Below, in pieces: positions 4,999 through 34,443 of a stretch of DNA of 35,412 bases. Location of the stretch: positions 1 through 35,412 of IMG/VR virus record IMGVR_UViG_3300020198_000045; one strand, 5' to 3'. The position numbers and the translations under genes are program-made. The DNA comes from a virus. Numbering within the stretch: the stretch's first letter is position 1; each line of letters opens with the position of its first letter. Below the pieces are notes generated by a model that did not search any database, was not told the origin of the DNA, and was given only the letters and a program-made list of their open reading frames with translations.

Positions 4999-6363
4999 TT
5001 ATGCGGACAAATCCTTAATTGCTGCCTGTACCCAGATATTGGTGCACCGGTGCTCACCAAGAGTAAAGAGCAAACCACGAACTACCAGCTGGTTAGCAGC
5101 GAAGTAGTCACGGTTCTCAATATATCTCGTTGGTTGCGCGATGGCAATCTCAAGGGCATCAGTGTCGAGAACGTAAACGTTTCGACCAAGAACTACATCA
5201 CCCGTCGATACACTCTGAGGAGCATCCGGTTCTGTTAGAATCGGAATACCCTGGTATGTAGCAAGAACAAGTCCTGTTCTTGTTCCAGGGAATGTCTTCT
5301 CACTTCCAATTCCTACTTGGTATTCTTCAACGCCGAGGTAACGCTGTTGAGCATTGAGCAATCTTTCCATGTGGAAATATTGATCATGTCCCATAAGAAT
5401 AAGCTTTGGATCTCCACCATTCTGACGAATGTTTTGGATGCTGTTATCGATAAGGTTAAGGGTCAATGAACGACCAACACCGGCATTATGAGAAACAATA
5501 GCGCCTGCATTCCAGGTTCCCGCTACCCTTCCACCAAAAGTGAGGTCGTATGCTCTAACTCCACCATTTGCAGCAAAGTTTGCATTTGTTGAACCACCAC
5601 TAATTCTTGCACCATCTTCATTTACAATGTCATCAAGGGAGGTAAATCCAGCCCTAGAATAGATTGTTGCCAAGTCAGTGTCGGCAAAAGCAGTACCAGT
5701 AGCAACAGTTACCACACCTGTAGACGTGTTTACCGCTGAAACAACAGAACCACTTGTTCTGATCCAATCATTGGCACTGTCATCCCATTGGGAGACTGCG
5801 TCACCAATCTTGTAGTTCTTTGCGAAGGCCGCTGGAACCGTAAAGCTTGTAGCAGCACCAGCAGAAACCACACTTCCGGCAGCTGCAAGCAACTCCTCGT
5901 TGATTTCCTTAGCATGGTCACGTTCTGCATTCTCGTGTTCCATGGCAAGCACGTCTCCAACACCACCTTCTAGGTTAGCAGTAAACACGGACTTGATTGA
6001 AACACCGAAAGTCGTACCAACAATTCTCGGAAGCGAGCTTACCGTGTTAATGTTGGAAACATCTATTGTCGGAAGTGACCCGGTTTCTGTAATTGGCCGA
6101 GATCTTCCCGAACCACGATCATCACGCACACGCCAACCAGCTACATTTCCCCAAGTTACCCGAGGTATTGCATTAAAGAAACGGGTTTGGTTGTTGAGTG
6201 CCTGCCACACTTTGCGACCGTATGTTGTATTAAAGATTCCAGTTGCCGTATCGACCGTGAAAAAGGTCTGCTTAGACAACCAGTTTTCTCCGAACACTTG
6301 CTGCAAAAGTGAGCGGCCGCGCTGACTTTCAGCAAGATATGAACTTAAATTTGTATTGGCCAT
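4999..6363 (-). CDS. Major capsid protein, HK97 fold
   Basis: 454 residues. The features fit HK97-fold phage capsid proteins: an N-terminal helical arm (SLLQQVFGENWLSKQ), a basic Arg-rich E-loop-like segment (WRVRDDRGSGRSRP), an SIKSVFTANLEG strand region followed by the acidic spine helix, and a C-terminal QLVVRGLLFTLGEHRCTNIW. LILMGHDQYFHMERLL is a typical A-domain segment. An insertion of about 70 residues rich in Ser/Thr/Ala near 170-240 may be an I-domain-like decoration. It follows the scaffold-like gene by 23 nt and precedes two strong terminators, as expected for a highly expressed capsid gene. ATG 6363 has an AGGAG-type RBS. Confidence 0.85.
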   Translation of the reverse strand: MANTNLSSYLAESQRGRSLLQQVFGENWLSKQTFFTVDTATGIFNTTYGRKVWQALNNQTRFFNAIPRVTWGNVAGWRVRDDRGSGRSRPITETGSLPTIDVSNINTVSSLPRIVGTTFGVSIKSVFTANLEGGVGDVLAMEHENAERDHAKEINEELLAAAGSVVSAGAATSFTVPAAFAKNYKIGDAVSQWDDSANDWIRTSGSVVSAVNTSTGVVTVATGTAFADTDLATIYSRAGFTSLDDIVNEDGARISGGSTNANFAANGGVRAYDLTFGGRVAGTWNAGAIVSHNAGVGRSLTLNLIDNSIQNIRQNGGDPKLILMGHDQYFHMERLLNAQQRYLGVEEYQVGIGSEKTFPGTRTGLVLATYQGIPILTEPDAPQSVSTGDVVLGRNVYVLDTDALEIAIAQPTRYIENRDYFAANQLVVRGLLFTLGEHRCTNIWVQAAIKDLSA

Positions 6364-18583: not shown

Positions 18584-18674
18584 CAGACTTTTTTTAAAAA
18601 AATTGTTTTCCAAAAAAAGACCTAGGGATCAGACTTTTTTTTAAAAAAATTGTTTTCCAAAAAAAGACCTAGGG
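18584..18674. repeat. Two tandem copies of a 45-bp A/T-tract repeat
   Basis: Each unit is CAGAC, T7 or T8, A7, TTGTTTTCC, A7 and GACCTAGGGA. The copies differ by one T. Phased A/T tracts usually bend DNA. The repeat sits directly upstream of the left-arm operon. Confidence 0.85.
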
Positions 18675-19060
18675 AGCTCATAAAGAATACCTAAATTGCC
18701 TATGCGAAAACATCGTCCCTACACTTCTCCATGTTCTCCATATCAGAAAGTTGATGACTCAATCTCCAAGCCGTGGCCCAGAGTCTAAGTCTAAAATCAA
18801 AGCGAATTCGACGATAAAAAATCCTCAGATAATCCTGGGCTGCCAATACTGCAATAATAACACTAGCAGGTAGTAGAACGGATATAGACTATAAGGTACA
18901 ATAGAATCCATATAGATATATATATTATAACATATAAAACTTATTTAGGGCCTATTACAATTCTACTGGTGGTCCTGCCCTCCTAACAGCCTCTTTTCAC
19001 TATATAAGGTATTAAAGAGCTGATTATACTCCATTAATGGGATTTAGTATAGTTAATTCC

Positions 19061-19079
19061 TGTCCAGACATACTGGACA
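19061..19079. promoter_or_regulatory. Inverted repeat, possible operator
   Basis: TGTCCAG-ACATA-CTGGACA, a 7-bp perfect dyad in the divergent region. It could be a repressor site or a small hairpin; no gene context decides. Confidence 0.4.
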
Positions 19080-19191
19080 CTAACAATTAGGCTAAATTTT
19101 AGAGCCGCCGGAAACAAATTCAAAATCGGATATTATTAGAAATAGAACTCGGACAAAGAAACTAAAAGAGGATAATGGATAACGTTAATAC

Positions 19192-19269
19192 TGGGAATTT
19201 TCATTCCCATGTATCATGTGACCGGTAGAATTTTCATCATCCTCCTCCCAGAGGGAGGAGGAGTTCTAC
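19192..19269. terminator. Twin hairpins at the left border of the array
   Basis: First hairpin 19192-19209 (TGGGAAT stem, loop TTTC, so the GAAA-type loop of the other copies is on the minus strand here). The second, 19225-19269, has the GTAGAA/TTCTAC base and a CCTCCTCCC arm. It borders the first cassette promoter. Confidence 0.6.
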
Positions 19270-19298
19270 TACCATACTTTTGCTACTTTGTAAACTGT

Positions 19299-19356
19299 TT
19301 TACTTTCCTTATAAACGTGATATAATGGTTTTACCAATAAATCGGTTATTGGTAAA
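19299..19356 (+). promoter_or_regulatory. Cassette promoter 1 with leader hairpin
   Basis: TTTACT at 19299, 16-bp spacer (others 17), TATAAT at 19321. The leader hairpin 19330-19356 has an 11-bp stem (TTTACCAATAA) and loop ATCGG. Confidence 0.8.
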
Positions 19357-19389
19357 CGGGCCACACGAAAAGCCCACAGGAGGTTCTCG

Positions 19390-19647
19390 ATGGTCTCCAT
19401 TATGTCTACTCGCTGCTACACTTGTTCAAAATCTCGTAGCCACATGTCTGCTGATCCAAGGGTCGTGTATTGTGGACAGTGTCGACAGCACTCTCTACAA
19501 AGGCTTTATCTGCAATGGAATGCTCTCAAGTCTATTGGTGCAAGCCCCGAAATTCTCAAAGACTGGCGTATTATGATCAAAGACCTTGAAACATGGTGTG
19601 ATGCTTTAGGCTACGGAGTACCACAATTTTCAATCAATAAAAGTTAG
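19390..19647 (+). CDS. Cassette 1: zinc-ribbon protein (85 aa)
   Basis: AGGAGG lies 6 nt before ATG 19390. CYTC and CGQC about 16 residues apart form a zinc ribbon in the first third. The rest is helical (LYLQWNALKSIGASPEILKD) and may be an interaction domain. It has its own promoter upstream and twin hairpins 9 nt after the stop. Family unknown. Confidence 0.7.
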   Translation: MVSIMSTRCYTCSKSRSHMSADPRVVYCGQCRQHSLQRLYLQWNALKSIGASPEILKDWRIMIKDLETWCDALGYGVPQFSINKS

Positions 19648-19655
19648 TTAGAGTG

Positions 19656-19739
19656 CACGGGGGGAATGAAAATTCCCCCCGTGTCTCAACCCGTAGAACC
19701 CGAACAGAACCCCCTCCCGAAGGGAGGGGGAAGTTCTAC
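19656..19739 (+). terminator. Twin hairpins after cassette 1
   Basis: H1 19656-19683: 12-bp stem from CACG6AAT closed by GAAA. H2 19693-19739: GTAGAAC/GTTCTAC base, internal loop, then a CCCCCTCCC/GGGAGGGGG arm with a GAA loop. No U tract follows, so termination may rely on the strong stems or on processing. Confidence 0.65.
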
Positions 19740-19768
19740 TATCATACTTTCTCTCTTTTGTACACTGG

Positions 19769-19826
19769 TTTACTTTTCCATTCCGACCATATATAATGAT
19801 TTCACCAATAAAAAACGAGTATTGGT
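19769..19826 (+). promoter_or_regulatory. Cassette promoter 2 with leader hairpin
   Basis: TTTACT-17-TATAAT (19769, 19792). Leader hairpin ACCAATA / loop AAAAACGAG / TATTGGT at 19804-19826. Confidence 0.85.
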
Positions 19827-19862
19827 AAACCGAGCTACCTGTCTTACGAAGGAGTTAGGTCT

Positions 19863-20138
19863 ATGACATTACGACATATCGTCACGAAGTTTCGTGGAAC
19901 GTGCTCAGGCATCTGTAAGAATAAGATCTCTGTTGGAGAGTATGTCATATGGGATCCTGACTCTAGAGAGATCTGGCATTCAGGATGCAGAACAGCTGGT
20001 GTTAATCCCGCTCTCGATCAGGAATCTGCAGAGGGAGTTCGGGAAGTCGAGCGCTACCAAGCAAATCTAAAGTTTTTCGGTGAAGAGTATGCAGCAGCCG
20101 AGGAAAGAATATGGGAGGGGCGTCTCGGATACGACTAG
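19863..20138 (+). CDS. Cassette 2: treble-clef-like zinc finger protein (91 aa)
   Basis: Start ATG 19863 after AAGGAG. C-x3-C at CSGIC, then ISVGEYVIWDPDSREIWHSGC, fits a small C..C...G...W-x-H-x2-C zinc finger known in many phage and actinobacterial miniproteins. The same W-x-H-x2-C ending recurs in cassette 3. The C-terminal half is an acidic helix (FFGEEYAAAEERIWEGRL). Likely DNA- or protein-binding; target unknown. Confidence 0.7.
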   Translation: MTLRHIVTKFRGTCSGICKNKISVGEYVIWDPDSREIWHSGCRTAGVNPALDQESAEGVREVERYQANLKFFGEEYAAAEERIWEGRLGYD

Positions 20139-20155
20139 TCCAAAATGATGAAATC

Positions 20156-20237
20156 CACGGGGGAATGAAAATTCCCCCGTGTCTCAACCCGTAGAACCTG
20201 AACAGAACCCCCTCCCGAAGGGAGGGGGAAGTTCTAC
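20156..20237 (+). terminator. Twin hairpins after cassette 2
   Basis: H1 20156-20181 has only five G paired with five C (six in cassette 1), so run length changes on both arms together. H2 20191-20237. Confidence 0.65.
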
Positions 20238-20266
20238 TATCACACTTTCTCTCCTTTGTACACTTG

Positions 20267-20325
20267 TTTACTTTTCCATTCCGACCATATATAATGGTCT
20301 TACCAATAAAAAACGAGTATTGGTA
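20267..20325 (+). promoter_or_regulatory. Cassette promoter 3 with leader hairpin
   Basis: TTTACT-17-TATAAT (20267, 20290). Hairpin TACCAATA / AAAAACGAG / TATTGGTA at 20301-20325. Confidence 0.85.
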
Positions 20326-20352
20326 AACCAATCCATTAAGGAAAGGAAACAA

Positions 20353-20508
20353 ATGACTGATACTGTCATATGCATCGTATGTGGCCAACCGCCCATCATT
20401 GGACGCTTCATGATCAAGATTGATAGGGGTTGGATTCATGTGGATACCTGCATCGCTAGCTGGCCTCAATACCCCTTCATAATGCGTTCTTCAGGCTGGA
20501 AGCCGTAA
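20353..20508 (+). CDS. Cassette 3: zinc finger miniprotein (51 aa)
   Basis: Start ATG 20353 follows AAGGAAAGG; the longer in-frame opening overlaps promoter and leader and is rejected. CIVC, then IIGRFMIKIDRGWIHVDTC, gives C-x2-C...W-x-H-x2-C. It is a paralogue of the 37-aa protein at 23435 and of the 31-aa minus-strand protein at 34452 (shared C-x2-C-x5-I-x-G-x-FMIK...GW-x-H). Confidence 0.7.
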   Translation: MTDTVICIVCGQPPIIGRFMIKIDRGWIHVDTCIASWPQYPFIMRSSGWKP

Positions 20509-20520
20509 CACACAAACAAG

Positions 20521-20611
20521 TCGGGAGGGTAGGAACAAACCTATCCTCCCGAAGTGGAAGAAGGGGTAGAACCCGAACAGAACCCCCTCCCGAAGGGAGG
20601 GGAAATTCTAC
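20521..20611 (+). terminator. Twin hairpins after cassette 3 (variant H1)
   Basis: H1 20521-20552 is a different sequence (TCGGGAGGGTAGG arm, loop AACAAA, one G-U pair). H2 20566-20611 keeps the GTAGAA/TTCTAC base. Confidence 0.65.
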
Positions 20612-20640
20612 TACCACACTTTTGCTCTCCTGTACACTGG

Positions 20641-20700
20641 TTTACTTCTCTTTCTAAACCGTATATAATGATCTCATCAATAAAAACGGTTATTGGTAAA
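20641..20700 (+). promoter_or_regulatory. Cassette promoter 4 with leader hairpin
   Basis: TTTACT-17-TATAAT (20641, 20664). The leader left arm is ATCAATAA against TTATTGGT, a C-to-T change kept as a U-G wobble. Confidence 0.85.
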
Positions 20701-20724
20701 ACAACCACAAGGAAAGGAATTGTC

Positions 20725-21069
20725 ATGAAGCAATCGTATTACAACCTTTGGGAAAACACTTGGAAGGAGTGGGACCCCGACAAGGGTGGTACATTCATTG
20801 CAGTTCATTCCGTATCAAATGCTTCGAGCAGACCACAGCACGATTTACAGAAAATAGTTGCAGAACTCGCGTGGGAGGTCTCTCGAGATCCCAGCTGGAT
20901 GAACGCGAAGATCTATAAGGTACCATGCATCTTCTCTCGTCATGACTCTTGGATCGAGCAAACGTACGAACTGCCACTCGATCTTGTGGAAGAGGCGAAA
21001 AGTATGTCATGGGAATGGCAGAAGGAAGTTTTTGAACGTAGCCACGGTTTAGTTGGGTTCTGGAGGTAG
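20725..21069 (+). CDS. Cassette 4: Trp-rich hypothetical protein (114 aa)
   Basis: Start ATG 20725 after GGAAAGGA. The sequence is rich in Trp (MKQSYYNLWENTWKEWDPDK) with a central helical part (LQKIVAELAWEVSRD) and a SWEWQKEVFERSHGLVGFWR ending. No family recognised. A deleted relic of this same cassette lies at 22019-22145. Confidence 0.65.
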   Translation: MKQSYYNLWENTWKEWDPDKGGTFIAVHSVSNASSRPQHDLQKIVAELAWEVSRDPSWMNAKIYKVPCIFSRHDSWIEQTYELPLDLVEEAKSMSWEWQKEVFERSHGLVGFWR

Positions 21070-21087
21070 GCGCTTCATAGGACATCA

Positions 21088-21171
21088 CATGGGGGGAATG
21101 AAAATTCCCCCCGTGTTCAACCCCGTAGAACCCGAACAGAACCCCCTCCCGAAGGGAGGGGGAAGTTCTAC
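21088..21171 (+). terminator. Twin hairpins after cassette 4
   Basis: H1 21088-21115 begins CATG and ends CGTG (U-G pair). H2 21125-21171 standard. Confidence 0.65.
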
Positions 21172-21200
21172 TATCACACTTTTGTCCCTTTGTACACTGG

Positions 21201-21258
21201 TTTACTTTTCCATTCCGACCATATATAATGGTCCTACCAATAAAAATGGTTATTGGAA
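21201..21258 (+). promoter_or_regulatory. Cassette promoter 5 with leader hairpin
   Basis: TTTACT-17-TATAAT (21201, 21224). Leader loop AAATGG. The right arm runs straight into GGAAGGGGG, which serves as RBS. Confidence 0.8.
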
Positions 21259-21271
21259 GGGGGTACAGACG

Positions 21272-21475
21272 ATGGATTTGGGAATGCACAGGCACGGATG
21301 GGCCAGAAACATCCAAGAGAGCCACCCCAAGTGGGAGTGGAAAAACTACACGGTAACCGTTTCGTGGGAGTGCCGCTGTGGAGCGCGCGTCATCCAGGCC
21401 CAAACCTTCCGCGAGCCGAGTAAAGAGTCAGAGCAGCCCGAAGTCGAAGTGATTTACGCAGACGAGACGGCCTGA
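21272..21475 (+). CDS. Cassette 5a: HRH/WECxCG protein (67 aa)
   Basis: MDLGMHRHGWARNIQES, then YTVTVSWECRCGARV, with an acidic tail. His and Cys pairs suggest a metal site. It is a clear paralogue of the protein at 27897-28214 (HRH-x-W...YTV-x-V-x-WEC-x-CGA). GC content is higher than in neighbouring cassettes, hinting at separate acquisition. Confidence 0.65.
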   Translation: MDLGMHRHGWARNIQESHPKWEWKNYTVTVSWECRCGARVIQAQTFREPSKESEQPEVEVIYADETA

Positions 21476-21515
21476 AGAACGAGCTCGCGGCGAGCGAGCC
21501 ATAGAGAGTAGCGGG

Positions 21516-21537
21516 GCGTCTTGACCGACGCCCCAGG
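21516..21537 (+). promoter_or_regulatory. Intercistronic hairpin
   Basis: GGGGCGTC-TTGACC-GACGCCCC, 8-bp stem, directly before AGGAGG. The segment TGACCGACGCCC plus AGGAGG recurs before the paralogous gene at 27897. Confidence 0.5.
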
Positions 21538-21581
21538 AGGGCGAAGTGATCACCGACACAAGAATGGAAGGAGTTAAGCCC

Positions 21582-21746
21582 ATGCGGAAGTCTAGCGGCA
21601 CTGTTCATTGCCTTCGTTGTAGAGTCCTGTACGATCTGGTCTCGTATCCCGCAGGCACTACGACCACCGCCTGTTACAAGTGCAGGAATCGCCAGGATAT
21701 CAAGGGGACATCGATCCTGAAGTTTCCTGATGGTCGGATTGGATAG
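21582..21746 (+). CDS. Cassette 5b: zinc-ribbon miniprotein (54 aa)
   Basis: ATG 21582 is chosen because AAGGAG lies 8 nt before it; upstream in-frame starts lack an RBS. CLRC and CYKC about 20 residues apart form a zinc ribbon, with a basic C-terminus. It is GC-rich like 5a and probably co-transcribed with it. Confidence 0.6.
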   Translation: MRKSSGTVHCLRCRVLYDLVSYPAGTTTTACYKCRNRQDIKGTSILKFPDGRIG

Positions 21747-21753
21747 CCGACAT

Positions 21754-21780
21754 CTCACCAATAAAAACGTTTATTGACAC
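21754..21780 (+). repeat. Orphan leader hairpin without promoter
   Basis: TCACCAATAAAAACG then TTTATTGACA: a degraded copy of the cassette leader, lacking -35/-10 boxes and twin hairpins upstream. It probably marks an old cassette fusion between 5b and the next gene. Confidence 0.55.
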
Positions 21781-21808
21781 AACAACAGCAAGGAAAGGAG
21801 GAATGATC

Positions 21809-22018
21809 ATGAAGCTAGAAATAAATATAGACAATGACCAGATTAAGGTCCTTGTTGATTGCGCAGTAGCAATTGATGCAATTGCATTGGCATTCGCAGA
21901 TCTAGGTATCAAAGCTCCAGAAGAAATTGAGGCTATGAGAGCGACATCTAAGGAGCTGAGACGACTACATCTCGTGCACTACGTGTGGGCGGCTCTTAGG
22001 AATCCCGGCGTGGTCTAA
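21809..22018 (+). CDS. Cassette 5c: small acidic helical protein (69 aa)
   Basis: ATG 21809 is preferred over 21803 because AAGGAGG needs 7 nt of spacing. Starts MKLEINIDNDQIKVLVD. Helical, ending VHYVWAALRNPGVV. That ending resembles the IWKAL-x-(N/D)P segment of the 22372 and 24297 proteins. Its stop codon lies inside the relic leader that follows. Confidence 0.55.
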   Translation: MKLEINIDNDQIKVLVDCAVAIDAIALAFADLGIKAPEEIEAMRATSKELRRLHLVHYVWAALRNPGVV

Positions 22019-22110
22019 ACGGTTATTGGTAAAACAACCACAAGGAAAGGAAGGGAGTTTTTGAACGTAGCCACGGTTTAGTTGGGTTCTGGCGGTAGGC
22101 GCTTCATAGG
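22019..22110 (+). pseudogene. Deletion scar of cassette 4
   Basis: The right half of a leader hairpin and the RBS (matching 20687-20719) are joined directly to the last 13 or so codons of the cassette 4 gene and its 3' flank (matching 21029-21087). About 300 bp of coding sequence is missing. The junction falls at an AAGGAA/GGAAG stretch present in both parents. No ORF remains. Confidence 0.8.
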
Positions 22111-22116
22111 ACATCA

Positions 22117-22198
22117 CATGGTGGGAATGAAAATTTCCCCCATGTTCAACCCGTAGAACCCGAACAGAACCCCCTCCCGAAGGGAGGGGGGGTTCTAC
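22117..22198 (+). terminator. Twin hairpins of the scar cassette
   Basis: H1 22117-22144 is decayed (CATGGTGGG against CCCCCATG, one mismatch). H2 22153-22198 is intact. Confidence 0.6.
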
Positions 22199-22237
22199 TG
22201 TTCTACTACCACACTTTTGCTCCGTTGTACACCCCTA

Positions 22238-22335
22238 TTTACGAACGTAATTTTTTAATATATAATTAATTCGTTAATTAAATTAATTAATTAATTAATT
22301 TAATTAATTTATTCGAATAAACGGTATTCGAATAA
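22238..22335 (+). promoter_or_regulatory. Divergent cassette promoter 6, AT-rich leader and leader hairpin with a new stem
   Basis: TTTACG-17-TATAAT (22238, 22261). The leader contains an unusual TTAATTAA-rich tract (22262-22310) and then hairpin 22309-22335 with an 11-bp stem TTATTCGAATA/TATTCGAATAA and loop AACGG. The stem is unrelated to other cassettes but the loop and position match. Confidence 0.75.
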
Positions 22336-22340
22336 AAATA

Positions 22341-22358
22341 TTAGGGGGTGACCCCTAA
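22341..22358 (+). promoter_or_regulatory. Second leader hairpin beside the RBS
   Basis: TTAGGGG-GTGA-CCCCTAA: 7-bp stem closed by a GNRA tetraloop, ending 2-3 nt before AAGGAG. It could tune translation of the next gene. Confidence 0.5.
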
Positions 22359-22371
22359 AAGGAGTACGGCC

Positions 22372-22641
22372 ATGCAACCTGAACTCTTTAAGGCCTTGGA
22401 TGCAGCCATATGGCTTGCAGCTACAAAGCTCAATCGACAGGACGTCATTGAGTGGCTCCAAGATCTCCAGATGAAGGAAGACAATGACTTCGCCGTTATG
22501 AACGGCAGACCACATGAGCACACCTTTCATCTGCAGAAGGATCTCGGTCTTATCTGGAAAGCTCTCATGAACCCACAGATGGTAATCTGTGATGGAACAG
22601 AGACATGCCCAGTAGGTGACTTCCACCTGATCGAATCCTAA
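22372..22641 (+). CDS. Cassette 6: helical protein of the IWKAL family (89 aa)
   Basis: ATG 22372 after AAAAGGAG. Helices at LFKALDAAIWLAATKLNRQD and VIEWLQDLQM, then LIWKALMNPQMVICDGTETC. It is a paralogue of the 83-aa protein at 24297 (IWKALRDPSLTVCNG). Function unknown; the conserved C-x4-C and final His may bind metal. Confidence 0.65.
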   Translation: MQPELFKALDAAIWLAATKLNRQDVIEWLQDLQMKEDNDFAVMNGRPHEHTFHLQKDLGLIWKALMNPQMVICDGTETCPVGDFHLIES

Positions 22642-22647
22642 TCGATC

Positions 22648-22773
22648 GCACGGGGGGGACTCCATCCCCCCCGTGCCCCCTCCCCGTAGAACTTCTCTTC
22701 TTACTCTCTTCTTATTCTCTTCTTATTCTCTTCTTACTCTTACCCCCCTCCCGAAGGGAGGGGGGGGTTCTAC
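22648..22773 (+). terminator. Twin hairpins after cassette 6, expanded H2
   Basis: H1 22648-22676 has seven G / seven C and loop ACTCCAT. H2 22686-22773 carries an about 48-nt pyrimidine tandem repeat (unit TCTCTTCTTAT) inside its left arm before the usual CCCCTCCC stem. Confidence 0.6.
22693..22740. repeat. Pyrimidine tandem repeat
   Basis: Four copies of an 11-12-bp TCTCTTCTTA(C/T) unit within H2. Single copies occur after H2 at 27416-27428 and 28319-28332, so this is a local expansion. Confidence 0.7.
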
Positions 22774-22810
22774 TGTTCTACTACCACACTTTCTCTCCTT
22801 TGTACACTGG

Positions 22811-22869
22811 TTTACTTCTCCATTCCAACCGTATATAATGGTCTTACCAATAAAAACGAGTATTGGTAA
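22811..22869 (+). promoter_or_regulatory. Cassette promoter 7 with leader hairpin
   Basis: TTTACT-17-TATAAT (22811, 22834). Leader TACCAATA / AAAACGAG / TATTGGTA. Confidence 0.85.
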
Positions 22870-22891
22870 AACGACCCCTAAGGAGACAAGT

Positions 22892-23218
22892 ATGAAGAAC
22901 CGGCTAGACACAGCGACAGAGATCAAATGGCTTGGGGAAGCGAAACTGCTTATAATCGACCTCTCCCATCGCAACGATGGACAGATCATGAGCCTGATCA
23001 GGCACTGCGACATCATGGGTACCCAACGTGAGTACTCTGGCCTCCCATCCAGCGACGTTCGATTCTTCCGAGAGTTGGCCATGAAGCTCCGCATGATGAT
23101 CGGGGCCGAGGATTACCCAGAGTATCCCCTGGCCACCGACAACCCCACCAAATTCACCCAGAAGTGGAAGGACCGATGGGGAACTAAGTACCCAATCAAT
23201 CTCGAAGAGGCACAGTAG
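22892..23218 (+). CDS. Cassette 7: hypothetical protein (108 aa)
   Basis: ATG 22892 after AAGGAG; upstream frame extension crosses the promoter and is rejected. Predominantly helical (TEIKWLGEAKLLIIDLSHRN; FFRELAMKLRMMIGAED) with a Pro/Trp-rich end. No recognised family. Confidence 0.65.
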   Translation: MKNRLDTATEIKWLGEAKLLIIDLSHRNDGQIMSLIRHCDIMGTQREYSGLPSSDVRFFRELAMKLRMMIGAEDYPEYPLATDNPTKFTQKWKDRWGTKYPINLEEAQ

Positions 23219-23225
23219 GCCTCCA

Positions 23226-23309
23226 CACGGGGGGAATGAAAATTCCCCCCGTGTCTCAACCCGTAGAACCTGAACAGAACCCCCTCCCGAAGGGAGGGGG
23301 GGGTTCTAC
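23226..23309 (+). terminator. Twin hairpins after cassette 7
   Basis: H1 23226-23253 and H2 23263-23309. The segment is nearly identical to that after cassette 1. Confidence 0.65.
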
Positions 23310-23346
23310 TGTTCTACTACCACACTTTTGTTCCTTTGTAAACTGG

Positions 23347-23409
23347 TTTACTTCTCCCCTCAAACCATATATAATGGTCTTACCAATAAAAAACGGTTAT
23401 TGGTAAAAC
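23347..23409 (+). promoter_or_regulatory. Cassette promoter 8 with leader hairpin
   Basis: TTTACT-17-TATAAT (23347, 23370). The -35 sits in GTAAAC-TG-GTTTAC (23338-23351). Leader loop AAAACGG. Confidence 0.85.
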
Positions 23410-23434
23410 GACCCCCTCAGAAAGGGAAACCGAT

Positions 23435-23548
23435 ATGGTTTGCGTAAAGTGCAATCGCCCCTACATCATGGGGCACTTCATGATTAAGACCGCCGAGGGT
23501 TGGAAGCATCTGGCGTGGTCAGTGCTTGGTGGTGGTTGCCCACGTTAG
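23435..23548 (+). CDS. Cassette 8a: zinc finger miniprotein (37 aa)
   Basis: MVCVKCNRPYIMGHFMIK, then GWKH and a final GGGCPR, after GAAAGGGAAACCGAT. It is almost identical to the 31-aa minus-strand protein at 34452-34547, from which it differs mainly by a six-residue insertion between GWKH and GGC. C-x2-C plus H and C form a compact zinc site. Confidence 0.7.
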   Translation: MVCVKCNRPYIMGHFMIKTAEGWKHLAWSVLGGGCPR

Positions 23549-23558
23549 CTCAAATTAG

Positions 23559-23576
23559 TTGAGGATTAATCCTCAA
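23559..23576. promoter_or_regulatory. Perfect 18-bp palindrome before an RBS
   Basis: TTGAGGATTAATCCTCAA immediately followed by GGAG. The same palindrome recurs at 23800-23817. Operator or translation-control hairpin. Confidence 0.55.
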
Positions 23577-23588
23577 GGAGCGTGAATC

Positions 23589-23786
23589 ATGGCACGGGTC
23601 GAGGTTGACCAGTGCGTGAGCTGTGGTCGCAAGCGTGGCGAGCGTCACGTTGCGACGATGGCCATGCCGGATATTGAGGAATTGTGGGACTCGGTGGTTC
23701 CCGCCACGGATGGTTGCGAAGTGGAACCCGACGGTGTGTGTGAGCATGGCCACAATTCTTGGCTGAAAGTGTTAGGCGTTATGTAA
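23589..23786 (+). CDS. Cassette 8b: small zinc-binding protein (65 aa)
   Basis: ATG 23589 with AAGGAG 8 nt upstream. CVSC near the N-terminus and later Cys residues with CEHGH suggest metal binding. GC-rich. It sits between two copies of the 18-bp palindrome. No known family. Confidence 0.6.
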   Translation: MARVEVDQCVSCGRKRGERHVATMAMPDIEELWDSVVPATDGCEVEPDGVCEHGHNSWLKVLGVM

Positions 23787-23799
23787 GGCGGCGAAGTAG

Positions 23800-23817
23800 T
23801 TGAGGATTAATCCTCAA
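23800..23817. promoter_or_regulatory. Second copy of the 18-bp palindrome
   Basis: Identical TTGAGGATTAATCCTCAA, overlapping the AAAGGAG of the next gene. A shortened relative (TGAGGATTAATCCTTA) occurs at the end of the 130-aa gene near 33972. Confidence 0.55.
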
Positions 23818-23829
23818 AGGAGATGTGTT

Positions 23830-24078
23830 ATGCCACGTCGCAAGCGCAACATGTGGGCCAGGTTTACGCAAGCTGTAACCGACTTCTGGTTCAAGGTCAA
23901 GTTTACCCGCGTCACGTTCCGTGTGTACCTGAGGGAAGACGACTACCTGGACCACAAGTACGAACGCGGCGTCGCCCGGCGCGCTCGCTACTACGCCCGG
24001 CGTGCCGAAGCATATCGACGCTCCGTGTCCGAGCAGGACATGGCGGAGCGAGCGTCGGAAGTGGCAGAGCAGCAGTGA
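23830..24078 (+). CDS. Cassette 8c: Arg-rich basic protein (82 aa)
   Basis: ATG 23830 follows AAAGGAG. MPRRKRNMWARFTQAVTDFW start, a beta-like middle and an Arg/Ala helix (YERGVARRARYYARRAEAYR). GC-rich and very basic, likely nucleic-acid or membrane associated. A long overlapping frame (23823-24134) is a shadow. Confidence 0.55.
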   Translation: MPRRKRNMWARFTQAVTDFWFKVKFTRVTFRVYLREDDYLDHKYERGVARRARYYARRAEAYRRSVSEQDMAERASEVAEQQ

Positions 24079-24086
24079 ACACAGAG

Positions 24087-24170
24087 CACGGGGGGAATGA
24101 AAATTCCCCCCGTGTCTCAACCCGTAGAACCTGAACAGAACCCCCTCCCGAAGGGAGGGGGAAGTTCTAC
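24087..24170 (+). terminator. Twin hairpins after cassette 8
   Basis: H1 24087-24114, H2 24124-24170, standard sequence. Confidence 0.65.
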
Positions 24171-24207
24171 TGTTCTACTATCACACTTTCTCTCCTTTGT
24201 AAACCGG

Positions 24208-24267
24208 TTTACTTTTCCCTTCCGACCATATATAATGGTCCTACCAATAAAAAACGGTTATTGGTAA
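24208..24267 (+). promoter_or_regulatory. Cassette promoter 9 with leader hairpin
   Basis: TTTACT-17-TATAAT (24208, 24231). The -35 lies in the perfect palindrome GTAAACCGGTTTAC (24199-24212). Leader loop AAAACGG. Confidence 0.85.
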
Positions 24268-24296
24268 ATCAACCCCCTCAGAAAGGGAAACCGATT

Positions 24297-24548
24297 ATGA
24301 AGAACGGGTTTTTAGAGGTATTTTATTCTGGCCTAGAGTCTATGGCGGAGGAGCTCAAGCGTAATGATCTCCTCGATTGGATCTACGAAATCAAGATGAT
24401 GACTGACGACGGCCTGAAAGATAAACACTTCACTAATCCAACGGAGGAAATAGACAAAATTTGGAAAGCTCTCAGGGATCCCAGCTTGACAGTCTGCAAT
24501 GGATCATCATGCGGCGGTAGTTGGCACCTGGTAAACTGGCTTTCCTAG
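24297..24548 (+). CDS. Cassette 9: helical protein of the IWKAL family (83 aa)
   Basis: ATG 24297 (MKNGFLEVFYSGLESMAEEL). IDKIWKALRDPSLTVCNGSS aligns with LGLIWKALMNPQMVICDGTE of cassette 6. It shares leader and first codons with cassette 10, so 5' ends have been exchanged or duplicated. Confidence 0.65.
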   Translation: MKNGFLEVFYSGLESMAEELKRNDLLDWIYEIKMMTDDGLKDKHFTNPTEEIDKIWKALRDPSLTVCNGSSCGGSWHLVNWLS

Positions 24549-24555
24549 ATCCTCA

Positions 24556-24628
24556 CACGGGGGGGAATGAAAATTCCCCCCGTGACATAATCCGTAGAAC
24601 TTCCCATCCCATGGGAAGTTCTACGGAT
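24556..24628 (+). terminator. Twin hairpins after cassette 9, new H2 arm
   Basis: H1 24556-24584. H2 24590-24628 has an about 17-bp perfect stem (ATCCGTAGAACTTCCCAT) and a 3-nt loop. The GTAGAAC base is kept but the arm is different from the CCCTCCC type. Confidence 0.7.
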
Positions 24629-24665
24629 CTTCATTATACCACACTTTCTCTCCTTTGTACACCTG

Positions 24666-24724
24666 TTTATTTTTCCCTTCTGACCGTATATAATGATTTC
24701 ACCAATAAAAACGGTTATTGGTAA
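24666..24724 (+). promoter_or_regulatory. Cassette promoter 10 with leader hairpin
   Basis: TTTATT-17-TATAAT (24666, 24689). Leader ACCAATAA / AAACGG / TTATTGGT. Confidence 0.8.
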
Positions 24725-24753
24725 ATCACCCTCATCAGAAAGGGAAACCGATT

Positions 24754-25044
24754 ATGAAGAACGGGTCTAATGTTGATGATCAGATTAAAATGATATATTT
24801 AACAATGAATAGCATCGATGCCATCGTCAACTACGTATGGAAGAACGAAACGAACGAAGATTCCTACATGAAGGACCTTGGCCAGAAAATCGGGATAGCT
24901 CTAAAGGTCTGGAATAACTCTCTGGAGAAGCCACACGATCTTGGGTGGGTGCTCAAGAAGGCCAAGGACTCGATAGTAATGAGAGATCAGATAATCCCAG
25001 CAATGAACATAGAGTGTGGTTTCCCGGCCGACTACAGGCCTTAA
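24754..25044 (+). CDS. Cassette 10: hypothetical protein (96 aa)
   Basis: ATG 24754 (MKNGSNVDDQIKMIYLTMNS). Helical, with IALKVWNNSLEKPHD that loosely recalls the IWKAL motif, ending CGFPADYRP. Function unknown. Confidence 0.6.
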   Translation: MKNGSNVDDQIKMIYLTMNSIDAIVNYVWKNETNEDSYMKDLGQKIGIALKVWNNSLEKPHDLGWVLKKAKDSIVMRDQIIPAMNIECGFPADYRP

Positions 25045-25051
25045 TTCACCG

Positions 25052-25124
25052 CACGGGGGGGGAATGAAAATTCCCCCCCGTGACATAATCCGTAGAACTT
25101 CCCATCCCATGGGAAGTTCTAGGA
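25052..25124 (+). terminator. Twin hairpins after cassette 10
   Basis: H1 25052-25082 has eight G against seven C. H2 25089-25124 lacks the CG after TTCTA, a small deletion compared with cassette 9. Confidence 0.65.
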
Positions 25125-25162
25125 TCTTCATTATACCATACTTTTGCTCCTTTGTACACTGG

Positions 25163-25221
25163 TTTACTTTTCCTCCTAAACCGTATATAATGGTCCTACC
25201 AATAAAAACGATTATTGGTAA
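25163..25221 (+). promoter_or_regulatory. Cassette promoter 11 with leader hairpin
   Basis: TTTACT-17-TATAAT (25163, 25186). Leader loop AAACGA. Confidence 0.85.
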
Positions 25222-25237
25222 ACCAAGGAGTACGTCT

Positions 25238-25654
25238 ATGGGTAACTATCCCCCCGGTTCTTTTTACGATCCAAGGGCTCCATGGAATCAAGAAGATCAT
25301 CACCCCAGATGCCTGGCCAGCGATAACGCACCAGAATTCATTCCCAATCCTGATGACTTGCTTGACTCTGTCAATAACGTTATATACGATTGGAGACGGC
25401 AATCCTATCTCAAGCAGGAAATCCCTGGTAACAACGTGAACGACTTAGTAAGTCGGTCTTTGCTGATAAAACTTGAGCAAGTCGCAAAGCCACAGTGTAC
25501 TTGCGACGAGAATGCAAGAGAAGACTACTACAGTCAAGACGATTACGACCCCGACCCATTCCGTGGCAGAGACGCAGAAGCCGATTCCGATGTACTCCGC
25601 AGTGCTGGTCTCGGAACTGACGAAGACTATGGGCTTTACCAAGAAGTAGTATAA
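25238..25654 (+). CDS. Cassette 11: acidic protein (138 aa)
   Basis: ATG 25238 after AAGGAG. Starts MGNYPPGSFYDPRAPWNQED, has a CTCDENARED segment and a very acidic Asp/Tyr-rich C-terminus (YYSQDDYDPDPFRGRD). The acidity could suit a DNA mimic or inhibitor, which is speculation. No family recognised. Confidence 0.6.
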   Translation: MGNYPPGSFYDPRAPWNQEDHHPRCLASDNAPEFIPNPDDLLDSVNNVIYDWRRQSYLKQEIPGNNVNDLVSRSLLIKLEQVAKPQCTCDENAREDYYSQDDYDPDPFRGRDAEADSDVLRSAGLGTDEDYGLYQEVV

Positions 25655-25666
25655 AGGAGTGCTTCA

Positions 25667-25738
25667 CACGAGGGGGATAAAAATCCCCCTCGTGACATAA
25701 TCCGTAGAACTTCCCATCCCATGGGAAGTTCTACGGAT
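25667..25738 (+). terminator. Twin hairpins after cassette 11 (AGGGGG variant)
   Basis: H1 25667-25694: CACGAGGGGGAT with complementary CCCCCTCGTG, so the G-to-A change is matched by C-to-T. H2 25700-25738 long TTCCCAT arm. Confidence 0.7.
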
Positions 25739-25775
25739 CTTCATTATATCATACTTTTACTCTCCTGTACACTGG

Positions 25776-25833
25776 TTTACTTCTCCCCTTTGACAGTATA
25801 TAATGGTCTTACCAATAAAAACGGTTATTGGTA
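25776..25833 (+). promoter_or_regulatory. Cassette promoter 12 with leader hairpin
   Basis: TTTACT-17-TATAAT (25776, 25799). Leader ACCAATAA / AAACGG / TTATTGGT. Confidence 0.85.
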
Positions 25834-25855
25834 AAACAAATAACGGAGGTCCGAC

Positions 25856-26065
25856 ATGATAGGCTACACGCCTAAGTACCCGGAAATCACGGTCCAACTA
25901 GTAGGCGAAGATGGCAACGCGTTCTCTATTCTTGGTCGGGTAACTCGAGCCTTGCGACGTGGTGGTGCAACTATAGACGACATCAATGAATTCCAACGCG
26001 AGGCAACTAGCGGTGACTACGATAACCTTCTCCGAACCGTCTGTAAATATGTAGACGCTAGCTAA
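25856..26065 (+). CDS. Cassette 12a: conserved small phage protein (69 aa)
   Basis: ATG 25856 after ACGGAGG. VQLVGEDGNAFSILGRVTRA, then INEFQREATSGDYDNLLRTV, match a widespread small hypothetical family of phages and actinobacteria (QL-x-GEDGNAF ... EATSGDYD-x-LL). Function unknown, but the strong conservation elsewhere supports a real gene. Confidence 0.8.
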   Translation: MIGYTPKYPEITVQLVGEDGNAFSILGRVTRALRRGGATIDDINEFQREATSGDYDNLLRTVCKYVDAS

Positions 26066-26087
26066 AACAAGACGAGGTTGAACCAAA

Positions 26088-26115
26088 TCCTCCCCTCTCG
26101 AAAGAGAGGGGAGGA
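26088..26115 (+). promoter_or_regulatory. Intercistronic hairpin with GAAA loop
   Basis: 12-bp perfect stem TCCTCCCCTCTC closed by GAAA, before AAAGGAAA and the next ATG. It resembles the array hairpins but lies inside a polycistronic unit. Confidence 0.6.
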
Positions 26116-26132
26116 GGAAAAAGGAAACAACA

Positions 26133-26327
26133 ATGTCACAAGTAAAAACCATCGAAGCTTCAGAACTCAGATTACCTCCTGGGATCTGGCCAAAAAAATT
26201 GCTTGCTGGGCGTTATGGCATAGTTTTCCGCACAAATATAGTTCGTAACTCCTTCACTAATGAGATTGAGCATGTAGACTACTTTGTAGATAGTACCGGA
26301 GACACTATCCGAGTATTCAATGACTAG
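26133..26327 (+). CDS. Cassette 12b: hypothetical protein (64 aa)
   Basis: Beta-rich small protein (MSQVKTIEASELRLPPGIWP; GIVFRTNIVRNSF; YFVDSTGDTIRVFND). AAAGGAAACAACA precedes ATG. Possibly an SH3-like fold; no family assigned. Confidence 0.6.
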   Translation: MSQVKTIEASELRLPPGIWPKKLLAGRYGIVFRTNIVRNSFTNEIEHVDYFVDSTGDTIRVFND

Positions 26328-26342
26328 CCACAATTTAGAATA

Positions 26343-26358
26343 AGCGGTCTCCACCGCT
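26343..26358 (+). promoter_or_regulatory. Small hairpin abutting an RBS
   Basis: AGCGGT-CTCC-ACCGCT directly before GGAGG of the next gene. Confidence 0.4.
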
Positions 26359-26369
26359 GGAGGTTTCTG

Positions 26370-26756
26370 ATGGCAAATAAGGAAAGAATTCAAAAGTGGG
26401 TCGATGCTTTGCTATCTGGAAAGTTTTCTCAAGGAAAGAATGCACTTAGAACAAAAGAAGGAAATAAAGATCTATATTGTTGCTTGGGCGTTTTATGTGA
26501 AGTTGCTATAGAAGATGGAGTTCCCCTAGAAATAGAAGATAATCTCCATAATTCTGAGCTTTATCCTAAAGGTTGGAATATTAGTTATGACGCCGAATAT
26601 ATTTTCCCTCCTGATCTAGTATACGAATGGATTGAAATAGAACGGTTTCCCGAGGATGATGATGACAATGATTTTATGGAGTATGCTAGACTGAACGATA
26701 ATGGACGTTCATTTTCATACATAGCAGAAAGAATTAGGGAAAAGTACTTGGCTTAG
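26370..26756 (+). CDS. Cassette 12c: conserved phage protein, IQKWV family (128 aa)
   Basis: IQKWVDALLSGKFSQGKNAL, then LYCCLGVLCEVAIEDGVPLE, then a LNDNGRSFSYIAERIREKY ending. It is a paralogue of the 130-aa minus-strand protein at 33978-34370. The family (W-x-x-ALRSG...YCCLGVLCE...ND-x-G-x-SF-x-x-IA) is frequent in phages with no known activity. The Cys pair is invariant in both copies. AT-rich compared with 5a/8c. Confidence 0.75.
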   Translation: MANKERIQKWVDALLSGKFSQGKNALRTKEGNKDLYCCLGVLCEVAIEDGVPLEIEDNLHNSELYPKGWNISYDAEYIFPPDLVYEWIEIERFPEDDDDNDFMEYARLNDNGRSFSYIAERIREKYLA

Positions 26757-26765
26757 AAGTAAATT

Positions 26766-26839
26766 CACGAGGGGGATTTTTATCCCCCTCGTGACATAAT
26801 CCGTAGAACTGAACCCTCCAGAAGAGGGTTCAGTTCTAC
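26766..26839 (+). terminator. Twin hairpins after cassette 12
   Basis: H1 26766-26793, CACGAGGGGGAT stem with TTTT loop. H2 26803-26839 has a third arm type, GTAGAACTGAACCCTC, 16 bp. Confidence 0.7.
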
Positions 26840-26869
26840 TGCCATACTTTTTCTCCTTTGTAAACCACC

Positions 26870-26929
26870 TTTACATATGGATCCCAATATGATATAATGA
26901 TCCTACCAATAAAAACGGTTATTGGTAAA
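26870..26929 (+). promoter_or_regulatory. Cassette promoter 13 with leader hairpin
   Basis: TTTACA-17-TATAAT (26870, 26893). The spacer differs from other copies; the leader hairpin is identical to cassette 12. Confidence 0.8.
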
Positions 26930-26947
26930 ACAAATAACGGAGTAACA

Positions 26948-27322
26948 ATGAGTACTAAAGAAGAGAAACTCACAGCCATTGATCGACTAGAAAACGATAT
27001 TGGTAGCCACAGAATTATCAAAACTGAAGAGGCAAACAAAATCGGAGAACCATTCGGCCTTACCTTTGGAGGAACAAGTTTCAAGCATGACCCAAATAAT
27101 CCAAAGGGTCCACTCTGGGACTTTGAAGATGGTGTTAGTTCATTCACATTAGCATCTAGAATTGCAGATGTGACTGCTGGTATGGAAAGAGAGTCGTATA
27201 TGGGGCGGGGATTCCAATTCCGATCAGATTGCAAGGCCGCTAGATTAGCAATTATGAACGAAGGAATTAAGCCCTCTGAAAACGACACTGACGGTCCTGG
27301 TAAATTCTCCACTGTGTCATAA
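26948..27322 (+). CDS. Cassette 13: hypothetical protein (124 aa)
   Basis: ATG 26948 after CGGAG. MSTKEEKLTAIDRLENDIGS start, a Gly-rich middle (FGLTFGGTSFKHDPNNPKGP) and helices at SSFTLASRIADVTAGMERES. No known family; cytoplasmic soluble protein by composition. Confidence 0.6.
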   Translation: MSTKEEKLTAIDRLENDIGSHRIIKTEEANKIGEPFGLTFGGTSFKHDPNNPKGPLWDFEDGVSSFTLASRIADVTAGMERESYMGRGFQFRSDCKAARLAIMNEGIKPSENDTDGPGKFSTVS

Positions 27323-27334
27323 GTGAGTGCTTCA

Positions 27335-27415
27335 CACGAGGGGGATTTTAAAAATCCCCCTCGTGGCATAATCCGTAGAACTGAACCCTCTTCTGGAGGG
27401 TTCAGTTCTACGGAT
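27335..27415 (+). terminator. Twin hairpins after cassette 13
   Basis: H1 27335-27365 has a longer AT top. H2 27371-27415 has the CTGAACCCTC arm with loop TTCTG. Confidence 0.65.
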
Positions 27416-27469
27416 CCTCTTCTTACTCATTTCTTTATTATACCATACTTTTGTGCCCCTGTAAACTGG

Positions 27470-27528
27470 TTTACTTCTCCCCTCAGACCATATATAATAA
27501 TCCTACCAATAAAAACGGTTATTGGTAC
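27470..27528 (+). promoter_or_regulatory. Cassette promoter 14 with leader hairpin
   Basis: TTTACT-17-TATAAT (27470, 27493). The -35 lies in GTAAAC-TG-GTTTAC. After the leader hairpin the usual AAAC...GGAG spacer is missing. Confidence 0.8.
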
Positions 27529-27554
27529 CTGACTGGCAACGGTGGGGGTTCAAA

Positions 27555-27803
27555 GTGAAGGTTTCCGAAGCGAAAAAATGCTCCGTTGATATTGTGAGGC
27601 GCGATCCATACATAAAACCACCTAACATACATCGATATCCATGCCCGACTCCGGTCGTGTATCTCGGCATGTGCCAACGTCACGCGATCAAAGCCCTTGA
27701 AGAATCGCTAAGGGGGATGTATAAGCGCCCTTCTCCGGAAAACAAGGAAGCCATTGAGAAATTGCGGCAGACGATTGAGCGGCTTCGCCAGGATCCCAAA
27801 TAA
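27555..27803 (+). CDS. Cassette 14a: hypothetical protein (82 aa)
   Basis: GTG 27555 after GGTGGGGG is favoured; an in-frame TTG at 27522 lies inside the leader hairpin and would give 93 aa. Cys and His residues (KCSVDI; YPCPTPVVYLGMCQRHAIKA) suggest a zinc site. A basic helical tail (RQTIERLRQDPK) follows. GC-rich. Confidence 0.5.
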   Translation: MKVSEAKKCSVDIVRRDPYIKPPNIHRYPCPTPVVYLGMCQRHAIKALEESLRGMYKRPSPENKEAIEKLRQTIERLRQDPK

Positions 27804-27896
27804 TGGCCCTGAATGTACCTGCCAGTTCTGCATCGGCTCGACCAAAGAGGGCAATGATTAGAGGGACGCCTGACCGACGCCCAGGAGGTAATGGAA

Positions 27897-28214
27897 ATGG
27901 CAACGCACAGGCACGCATGGTCAAGACAGATCGAACAGAACAACATCGACAATGGCGGCTTGTGGCCCGACTACACCGTCTTGGTCTATTGGGAGTGCTA
28001 CTGTGGAGCGCACGCCACCCACACGCACACCTTCAGCCCGCCGGTCGAGTCGGTGCAGCTCGAAGCCGACTCCGAACAGGAACCCGACGACGCTTGCATC
28101 TGTGCCACGTGCAGGACGCACGTCAACGACGACGGTACTCGCCCCGAAGAAACGTCGGTTATATGGCCCACTTGGTGGGAGCTAAAGTTGCCATCAGACG
28201 CGCCGGGGTCCTAA
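27897..28214 (+). CDS. Cassette 14b: HRH/WECxCG protein (105 aa)
   Basis: ATG 27897 has AGGAGG 8 nt upstream (27891 is the alternative). MATHRHAWSRQIEQNN, then YTVLVYWECYCGAHATHTHT, is a paralogue of the 21272 protein, with an added C-terminal CICATCRTH zinc-ribbon half. GC-rich; the long frame 27803-28282 is its shadow. Confidence 0.65.
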   Translation: MATHRHAWSRQIEQNNIDNGGLWPDYTVLVYWECYCGAHATHTHTFSPPVESVQLEADSEQEPDDACICATCRTHVNDDGTRPEETSVIWPTWWELKLPSDAPGS

Positions 28215-28246
28215 CGCGTACACCCGTAAACAGCGAAGCGACGAAT

Positions 28247-28320
28247 GAGAGGGGGATTTTAAAAATCCCCCTCGTGGCATAATCCGTAGAACTTCCCATC
28301 CCATGGGAAGTTCTACGGAT
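28247..28320 (+). terminator. Twin hairpins after cassette 14
   Basis: H1 about 28247-28275 (GAGGGGGATTTT stem; its outer base pairs differ). H2 28282-28320 TTCCCAT arm. Confidence 0.65.
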
Positions 28321-28374
28321 TCTCTTCTTACTCATTTCTTCATTATACCATACTTTCTCTCCTTTGTAAACTGG

Positions 28375-28434
28375 TTTACTTCTCCTCTTCAACTATATAT
28401 AATGGCCTTATCAATAAAAACGGTTATTGATAAA
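28375..28434 (+). promoter_or_regulatory. Cassette promoter 15 with compensated leader hairpin
   Basis: TTTACT-17-TATAAT (28375, 28398). The leader is TATCAATAA / AAACGG / TTATTGATA: both arms changed together relative to TACCAATAA/TTATTGGTA. Confidence 0.85.
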
Positions 28435-33886: not shown

Positions 33887-33944
33887 CTTTCGTTTTGTGT
33901 TTTAACGTGAAATCATTATATAACATGGAAAGTAGATTGTAAAC
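33887..33944 (-). promoter_or_regulatory. Promoter plus leader, duplicated block copy 1
   Basis: TTTACA-17-TATAAT (33915-33943) followed by a leader. The whole block is about 95 percent identical to 34386-34443. Confidence 0.75.
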
Positions 33945-33977
33945 TCGACCCGAGCTATGATTCATGCTCCCTGAGGA

Positions 33978-34385: not shown

Positions 34386-34443
34386 CTTCCGTTTTGTGTT
34401 TTAACGTGAAATCATTATATCACATGGAAAGTAGATTGTAAAC
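34386..34443 (-). promoter_or_regulatory. Promoter plus leader, duplicated block copy 2
   Basis: TTTACA-17-TATAAT (34414-34442) driving the 130-aa gene. Confidence 0.75.

Follow-up and report, generated by a model that had tools for sequence, protein, structure and literature searches.

The IMG/VR virus record IMGVR_UViG_3300020198_000045 is classed as linear and has 40.8% G+C. All of its 35,412 bases were analysed here and are referred to as the window. Structural genes fill the left half on the minus strand, with the major head protein at 4999-6363 (phrog_24667). This protein matched nine phage records, eight of haloarchaeal viruses and one of a Methanofastidiosa virus, and none of T4-like phages. 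On the plus strand, between ~19.3 and 28.5 kb, short open reading frames (ORFs) of unassigned function are arranged in cassettes. A typical spacer opens with hairpin T1 behind the ORF (as in CACGGGGGGAAT-GAAA-ATTCCCCCCGTG); then come another hairpin (T2), a promoter of sigma-70-like type, a leader hairpin (H1), a Shine-Dalgarno sequence and the next ORF. Most copies of T1 and T2 are without a clear T-tract on the plus strand. Fourteen promoters of this kind (TTTACT-like -35, 16-17 nucleotides (nt), TATAAT; 16 nt in cassette 1 and 17 nt in the others) are followed by H1 hairpins between 19333 and 28431 (Table 1). These 14 promoter-led leaders are called type A, and cassette 6 is left out of type A counts. 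From this layout, each cassette is most likely a small transcription unit with a host-type sigma-70 promoter, an mRNA carrying a 5' hairpin, a Shine-Dalgarno sequence, one to few small ORFs and two strong 3' hairpins. The leader hairpin H1 is the subject of this analysis.

H1 of type A has the form ACCAATAA-loop-TTATTGGT and lies at one fixed distance from the promoter in all 14 leaders, a gap of 6 nt separating TATAAT from the start of (A)YCAATAA in every case. Since transcription usually starts 7 nt after the -10 element, the predicted +1 coincides with the stem's outermost base, an A. A sequence-only reading of this DNA had placed a hairpin within a few nucleotides of each transcript start. 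This was borne out for type A, where the stem begins at the predicted +1 in 13 of 14 leaders and at +2 in cassette 5, whose outermost A stands opposite an A. Standard pairs are formed at +2 in 14/14 leaders (one of them U-G), at +3 to +7 in 14/14 and at +8, next to the loop, in 11/14. Upstream of +1, pairing falls to 11/14 at -1, 10/14 at -2 and 4/14 at -3. A dyad that fades at about the predicted start is expected for an RNA stem and not especially for a DNA dyad; this is suggestive only, because the promoter constrains the bases further upstream as well. The mean pairing probability of nucleotide 2 was 0.98 for the 14 leaders compared to 0.21 for ten minus-strand promoters of the same contig. 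These ten controls come from 16 minus-strand promoters with an exact TATAAT, the six left out being five in cassette spacers and one of a terminator. In five distantly related virus records found via the head protein, three of which (G005, G006 and G008) were covered incompletely, 6 of 109 comparable strong promoters had a stem of at least 6 base pairs (bp) at an offset of 5-8. By coordinates, the 5' untranslated region spans 36-59 nt and 15-36 nt separate the end of H1 from the start codon, with the Shine-Dalgarno sequence outside the hairpin.

The H1 stem is held while the neighbouring sequence changes, though all copies are related. Each of the two stem arms is 98% identical to the type A consensus, and the -10 and -35 elements are 100% and 94% identical. 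The remaining parts are less conserved, with 87% identity over the final five bases of the loop, 79% from the -10 element to +1, 74% across the spacer of the promoter and 63% over the 12 nt downstream of the stem. The copies are related by duplication and are therefore not 14 independent observations. The stem is also kept across differing loop lengths, such that H1 extends over 21, 22 or 23 bases from +1. The loop itself had been described as constant, which proved roughly true at best: ACGG is found in 8 of the 14 type A leaders (cassettes 4, 8, 9, 10 and 12-15) and in cassette 6, and the others carry ATCGG (cassette 1), ATGG (cassette 5), ACGA (cassette 11) or ACGAG (cassettes 2, 3 and 7). 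Two individual substitutions reported earlier are present, namely the double change in both arms of cassette 15 (ATCAATAA/TTATTGAT) and the wobble in cassette 4, a U-G pair. Across 15 aligned hairpins, the 14 of type A and a promoterless copy, change on both sides affects one pair only (C-G in 12, U-G in 1, U-A in 1 and unpaired in 1). A MAFFT alignment including cassette 6 misplaced its arms, and this cassette was excluded from the pair counts.

Cassette 6 has a quite different leader. Its promoter lies at 22238-22266 and its predicted +1 at ~22273, where the predicted RNA begins with a 16-bp AU-rich hairpin separate from H1. Its H1 had been described as a wholly different stem at the 5' end of the transcript, pairing over 11 bp and keeping the loop AACGG. 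The pairing and the loop were found as described; the position was not, as this H1 lies inside the predicted transcript behind the AU-only hairpin, and the stem differs in its outer arms alone, the inner AATA-AACGG-TATT being common to type A. A second hairpin, GGGG-GTGA-CCCC, follows H1 here as it does in the sister contig described below. Remnants of H1 were found as well: the promoterless copy keeps the inner stem and has lost its two outermost pairs, and a remnant near 22018 consists of the 3' arm only.

Table 1. Coordinates of leader hairpins and associated elements in the window
Feature	Position	Strand	Details
Promoter example, cassette 1	19299..19326	+	sigma-70-like, TTTACT-N16-TATAAT
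H1 cassette 1	19333..19353	+	loop ATCGG; promoter -10 at 19321
H1 cassette 2	19804..19826	+	7 pairs, loop AAAAACGAG
H1 cassette 3	20302..20324	+	7 pairs, loop AAAAACGAG
H1 cassette 4	20676..20697	+	second pair is a U-G wobble
H1 cassette 5	21237..21256	+	loop AAATGG; outermost pair lost
Decayed H1 copy	21759..21776	+	promoterless (no TATAAT upstream); outer pairs lost
AU-only hairpin	22273..22308	+	at predicted +1 of cassette 6
H1 cassette 6	22309..22335	+	11 bp, loop AACGG; ~36 nt past predicted +1
H1 cassette 7	22846..22867	+	7 pairs, loop AAAACGAG
H1 cassette 8	23382..23404	+	
H1 cassette 9	24243..24265	+	
H1 cassette 10	24701..24722	+	
H1 cassette 11	25198..25219	+	loop AAACGA
H1 cassette 12	25811..25832	+	
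H1 cassette 13	26905..26926	+	consensus hairpin; promoter spacer and upstream divergent
H1 cassette 14	27505..27526	+	
H1 cassette 15	28410..28431	+	compensated U-A pair
T1 example, first intergenic hairpin after ORF	23225..23254	+	ACACGGGGGGAAT-GAAA-ATTCCCCCCGTGT
T2 example, second intergenic hairpin	23280..23300	+	CCCCCTCCC-GAA-GGGAGGGGG; minus-strand reading has TTC(G) loop and T-rich tail
Variable island	18626..24769	.	other cassette set and other leaders in sister contig 3300020200_001870

The sister contig 3300020200_001870 (G001, L287) is 99.9% identical to the window below 18626 and 99.6% identical above 24769. Between these flanks the whole cassette island is replaced, with 12 other cassettes at L287 3902-8638; gene families are shared and the leader type is changed. 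The leaders of the sister, called type B, retain T1, followed by T2, a TACCAT (8), TATAAT (3) or TACAAT (1) motif, TCTACT, a GC-rich H1, a further hairpin (H2) and the Shine-Dalgarno sequence. Type B H1 stems (TGCAGGG/CCCTGCA, TACCGAG/CTCGGTA, CAGAGC/GCTCTG and mixtures) are unrelated to those of type A and occupy the equivalent place, directly after a 6-nt gap in 10 of 12 leaders and behind two extra bases in b2 and b7; the stems themselves start 0 to ~3 nt past this gap. H2 is often GGGG-GNRA-CCCC or GGAG-GCAA-CTCC. Eleven of the 12 leaders were aligned, b9 being left out as its H1 is identical to that of b5 and b10. Of the five pairs in each hairpin, two in H1 and one in H2 change on both sides, and one of these two H1 pairs takes the forms A-U, G-U and G-C. 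None of 500 shuffles equalled type B in paired fraction, in the count of double-changed cells or in covariation score, although related sequences may exceed shuffles without any structure; the number of pairs with change on both sides (182/500 shuffles) and of pair types (485/500) was not unusual. For 11 chosen hairpin types, own arms paired at 0.99 compared to 0.56 when arms were re-dealt, and 0 of 5000 re-dealings matched the value for own arms.

Genes and leaders appear to have separate histories. Eight chosen gene pairs between window and sister showed ORF identities of 55-96% and identities over the 60-nt leader of 44-72%. The highest leader values (65, 69 and 72%) come from comparisons with the hybrid cassette 6. 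For cassette 10, the ORF is 96% identical to that of its counterpart in the sister, and leader identity is 47%, equal to the shuffled mean of 47%. Mean leader identity was 75% within type A and 68% within type B. Leader type thus seems to be tied to the island more than to the gene. We also observed that at L287 3900-8300, on the minus strand, H2, often with a GNRA-type loop, adjoins the Shine-Dalgarno sequence, and that H2 is present in cassette 6 of the window too. The 3' arm of H2, CTCCT, might base-pair with the AAGGAG behind it and so act as a switch of translation.

A 5' RNA element is the best reading of H1, based on the register with +1, the excess conservation of the stem, the fading of pairing at about +1 and the covarying stems found at the equivalent place in the sister. 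The different leader of cassette 6, which also starts with a predicted hairpin, is a further point in its favour. We give about an even chance to the view that H1 is a 5'-terminal mRNA stem-loop that would slow 5'-end-dependent decay, within an array of promoter and stem-loop cassettes. The first bases of the predicted mRNA would be locked in the stem, leaving no 5' nucleotides free. Pyrophosphohydrolase and 5'-end-dependent RNases (tethered RNase E or RNase J) would then start poorly, and the short cassette mRNAs would last longer. The start at +1, the in-cell fold of H1 and its stabilising role are inferred. In the review PMC3997798, an added 5' hairpin is described to stabilise bla mRNA and to impede RppH, and Bacillus RppH to require at least two unpaired 5' nucleotides. 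PMC6146998 describes higher mRNA abundance and expression with the T7 gene 10 stem-loop. A stem that begins at +1 and ends well before the start codon would fit a stabiliser role. Among the functions proposed in the sequence-only reading, a 5' stabiliser fits best, whereas the grounds it gave, covariation and a constant loop, do not carry the case. Translation control, also proposed there, is less likely because of the distance of H1 from the start codon and because the Shine-Dalgarno sequence is not included in the stem; sequestration of the Shine-Dalgarno sequence by H1 was dropped for the same distance.

Several results weigh against a 5' stabiliser. H1 has an AU-rich stem of low stability, with folding energies of -4.3 to -7.1 kcal/mol (mean z score -2.1), and the transcript start is a prediction from promoter position. 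Covariation within the window is not above chance, as 124 of 500 shuffles equal it. The arrangement is not unique to H1, since four of the six minus-strand promoters left out of the control have a hairpin near +1 (three T2 and one terminator). No sigma-70-type promoter was found at the type B leaders on the cassette strand, so H1 there may not be at the 5' end. Hairpins of this array are also remodelled in DNA. Between 24769 and 28670 the window and the sister contig differ at 16 positions, nine of which are accounted for by two loops swapped for their reverse complement, GAAA/TTTC in a T1 (25066-25069) and CAGAA/TTCTG in a T2 (26819-26823). A single-base difference at 25122 leaves a T2 arm complete in one genome and incomplete in the other. 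Template switching at palindromes would be expected to produce loop inversions of this kind. They imply that symmetric arms can arise in DNA without selection on RNA, and they confound type B covariation as a sign that pairing is kept over sequence.

Taken to its end, this process could explain H1 altogether: template switching in replication would make palindromes and keep them perfect, and H1 would have no function. The two inverted loops argue for such a by-product, as do the AAAA and TTTT loops of paralogous T1 hairpins (25667, 26765), which resemble the same inversion process. We nevertheless consider it very unlikely, because H1 is locked to +1 and is better conserved than the sequence around it. 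Inversion is seen in none of the 14 type A loops, which fits strand-specific use of H1, though the number is too small to prove this or to decide against a by-product. An inverted repeat at +1 beside a promoter is also a common operator position, and H1 could be a DNA site for a repressor dimer of phage or host that switches all cassettes together. Such an operator would be expected to look partly similar to what is seen, with an inverted repeat at +1 beside every cassette promoter, a nearly invariant stem sequence in the window and stems that are weak as RNA. However, the spacing of the arms varies with the length of H1, so half-sites would shift on the helix where a fixed spacing is expected. 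The fading of pairing at about +1, the U-G pair of cassette 4 and the several unrelated stems at the equivalent place in the sister speak against an operator as well; no copies were found outside the cassette array, and the promoterless copy lacks the outer pairs. Overall, we regard an operator as unlikely. Distinctly unlikely, in our view, is a protein-binding site in RNA, in which a phage or host protein would recognise the hairpin with its ACGG loop and control translation, stability or antitermination of all cassettes. The recurrence of ACGG, also in cassette 6 with its other outer arms, would agree with this. Some cassette ORFs also have paired cysteines, with one weak Zn-ribbon match below the cut-off; two examinations covered 10 selected ORFs each. 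Yet 6/14 leaders have another loop, the loops of the sister contig are unrelated, and no candidate protein was identified, the analysis having turned up no sign for or against a phage RNA-binding protein.

A 5' hairpin shield is a known device, most likely used here at unusual scale across a row of cassettes. The T7 gene 10 leader and the E. coli ompA and papA leaders are alike in having a hairpin at or within a few nt of the 5' end, upstream of a free Shine-Dalgarno sequence, and T7 gene 10 is also a phage mRNA. The window differs in that the same short AU stem precedes 14 separate units, at the predicted +1, where it would be stabilising. T4-like phages reportedly carry promoter early stem-loop (PeSL) cassettes, said to have been described by Arbiol in 2010 and Comeau in 2014. 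Judging by PMC4503421, the likeness lies in stem-loops that recur with a promoter between small ORFs, where gene turnover is strong. The array region of the window is likewise reshuffled between close relatives (18626-24769 against the sister contig); the differences are the extra hairpin at +1 and a phage that is not T4-like by its head protein. Morons are units of promoter, gene and terminator in phages. The cassettes resemble them as autonomous small units with their own promoter and flanking hairpins, and differ in that many stand in tandem with one shared leader type and in that T1 and T2 mostly have no clear plus-strand T-tract. Limited searches of the open-licence literature gave no account of an array whose units all open with a +1 hairpin, and a joint-term search for papers on T4-type phages returned none.

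If the stabiliser reading is true, the phage has made an mRNA 5' shield standard in the transcription units of a fast-changing gene island. The array would then offer a natural series of 5' hairpins, differing in strength and loop and in register with strong promoters, for tests of how pairing at the 5' end governs the lifetime of phage mRNA. A more tentative idea, which we hold to be doubtful, is that the 5' hairpin acts as a regulon tag, with one leader type for all genes of an island and whole islands swapping this type from one sister phage to the other as the gene families are retained. Shared families stand behind ACCAATAA-type leaders in the window and behind GC-rich, double-hairpin, promoter-poor leaders in the sister. 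Expression of many small genes of unassigned function could thus be set en bloc by exchange of an RNA 5'-end module, the hairpins being remodelled by template switching. The sister pair would allow the spread of leader modules among unrelated small genes to be tested.

Searches for relatives of the array returned little beyond the sister contig. Rfam gave no match above the gathering cut-off in the window, and no near-identical GenBank phage was found at megablast level. Exact-pattern scans returned 79 viral-contig stretches and at least 119 genome-contig matches, mostly scattered singles, which we read as chance, the genome-contig loci being judged from the listing alone. Among viral loci, repeated matches in promoter context were found only in 3300020200_001870 and 3300020214_000103. 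In a promoter-pattern scan, 15 of 17 further loci had no H1-type hairpin after the match, and in the other two (L300, L302) the match lies at the locus end with its context not covered. The full promoter-hairpin pattern was found in 0 of 10 other virus records, and a scan with the T1 pattern gave one extra, unrelated locus. Two family scans found no relatives of the cassette proteins beyond the sister contig, with the same outcome for the type B linker. An integron attC-like array was set aside, as the site-specific tyrosine integrase (PF00589) was found in 0 of three records, all of them fragments. An N4-type hairpin promoter was dropped because the loop size does not fit and because type A has sigma-70 hexamers.

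Other features of the region were observed. The left border of the variable island carries a tandem duplicated stretch at 18585-18675 (agactttttttt... to ...gacctaggga). Minus-strand promoters (TTTACA or TGTACA, 17 nt, TATAAT) from 24638, 25135, 25748, 27442 and 28347 stand back to back with plus-strand promoters and read antisense into T2/T1 and the upstream cassette. Their paired -35 regions form a near-palindrome, TGTAAA-CTGG-TTTACT, and in the left cassettes the minus-strand -10 position is TAGTAG. Two minus-strand leaders, at 33890-33960 and 34390-34440, are near-identical (TGATTTCACGTTAAAACACAAAACG); they have TATAATGATTTCAC in common with some plus-strand leaders and are without an H1-type hairpin.

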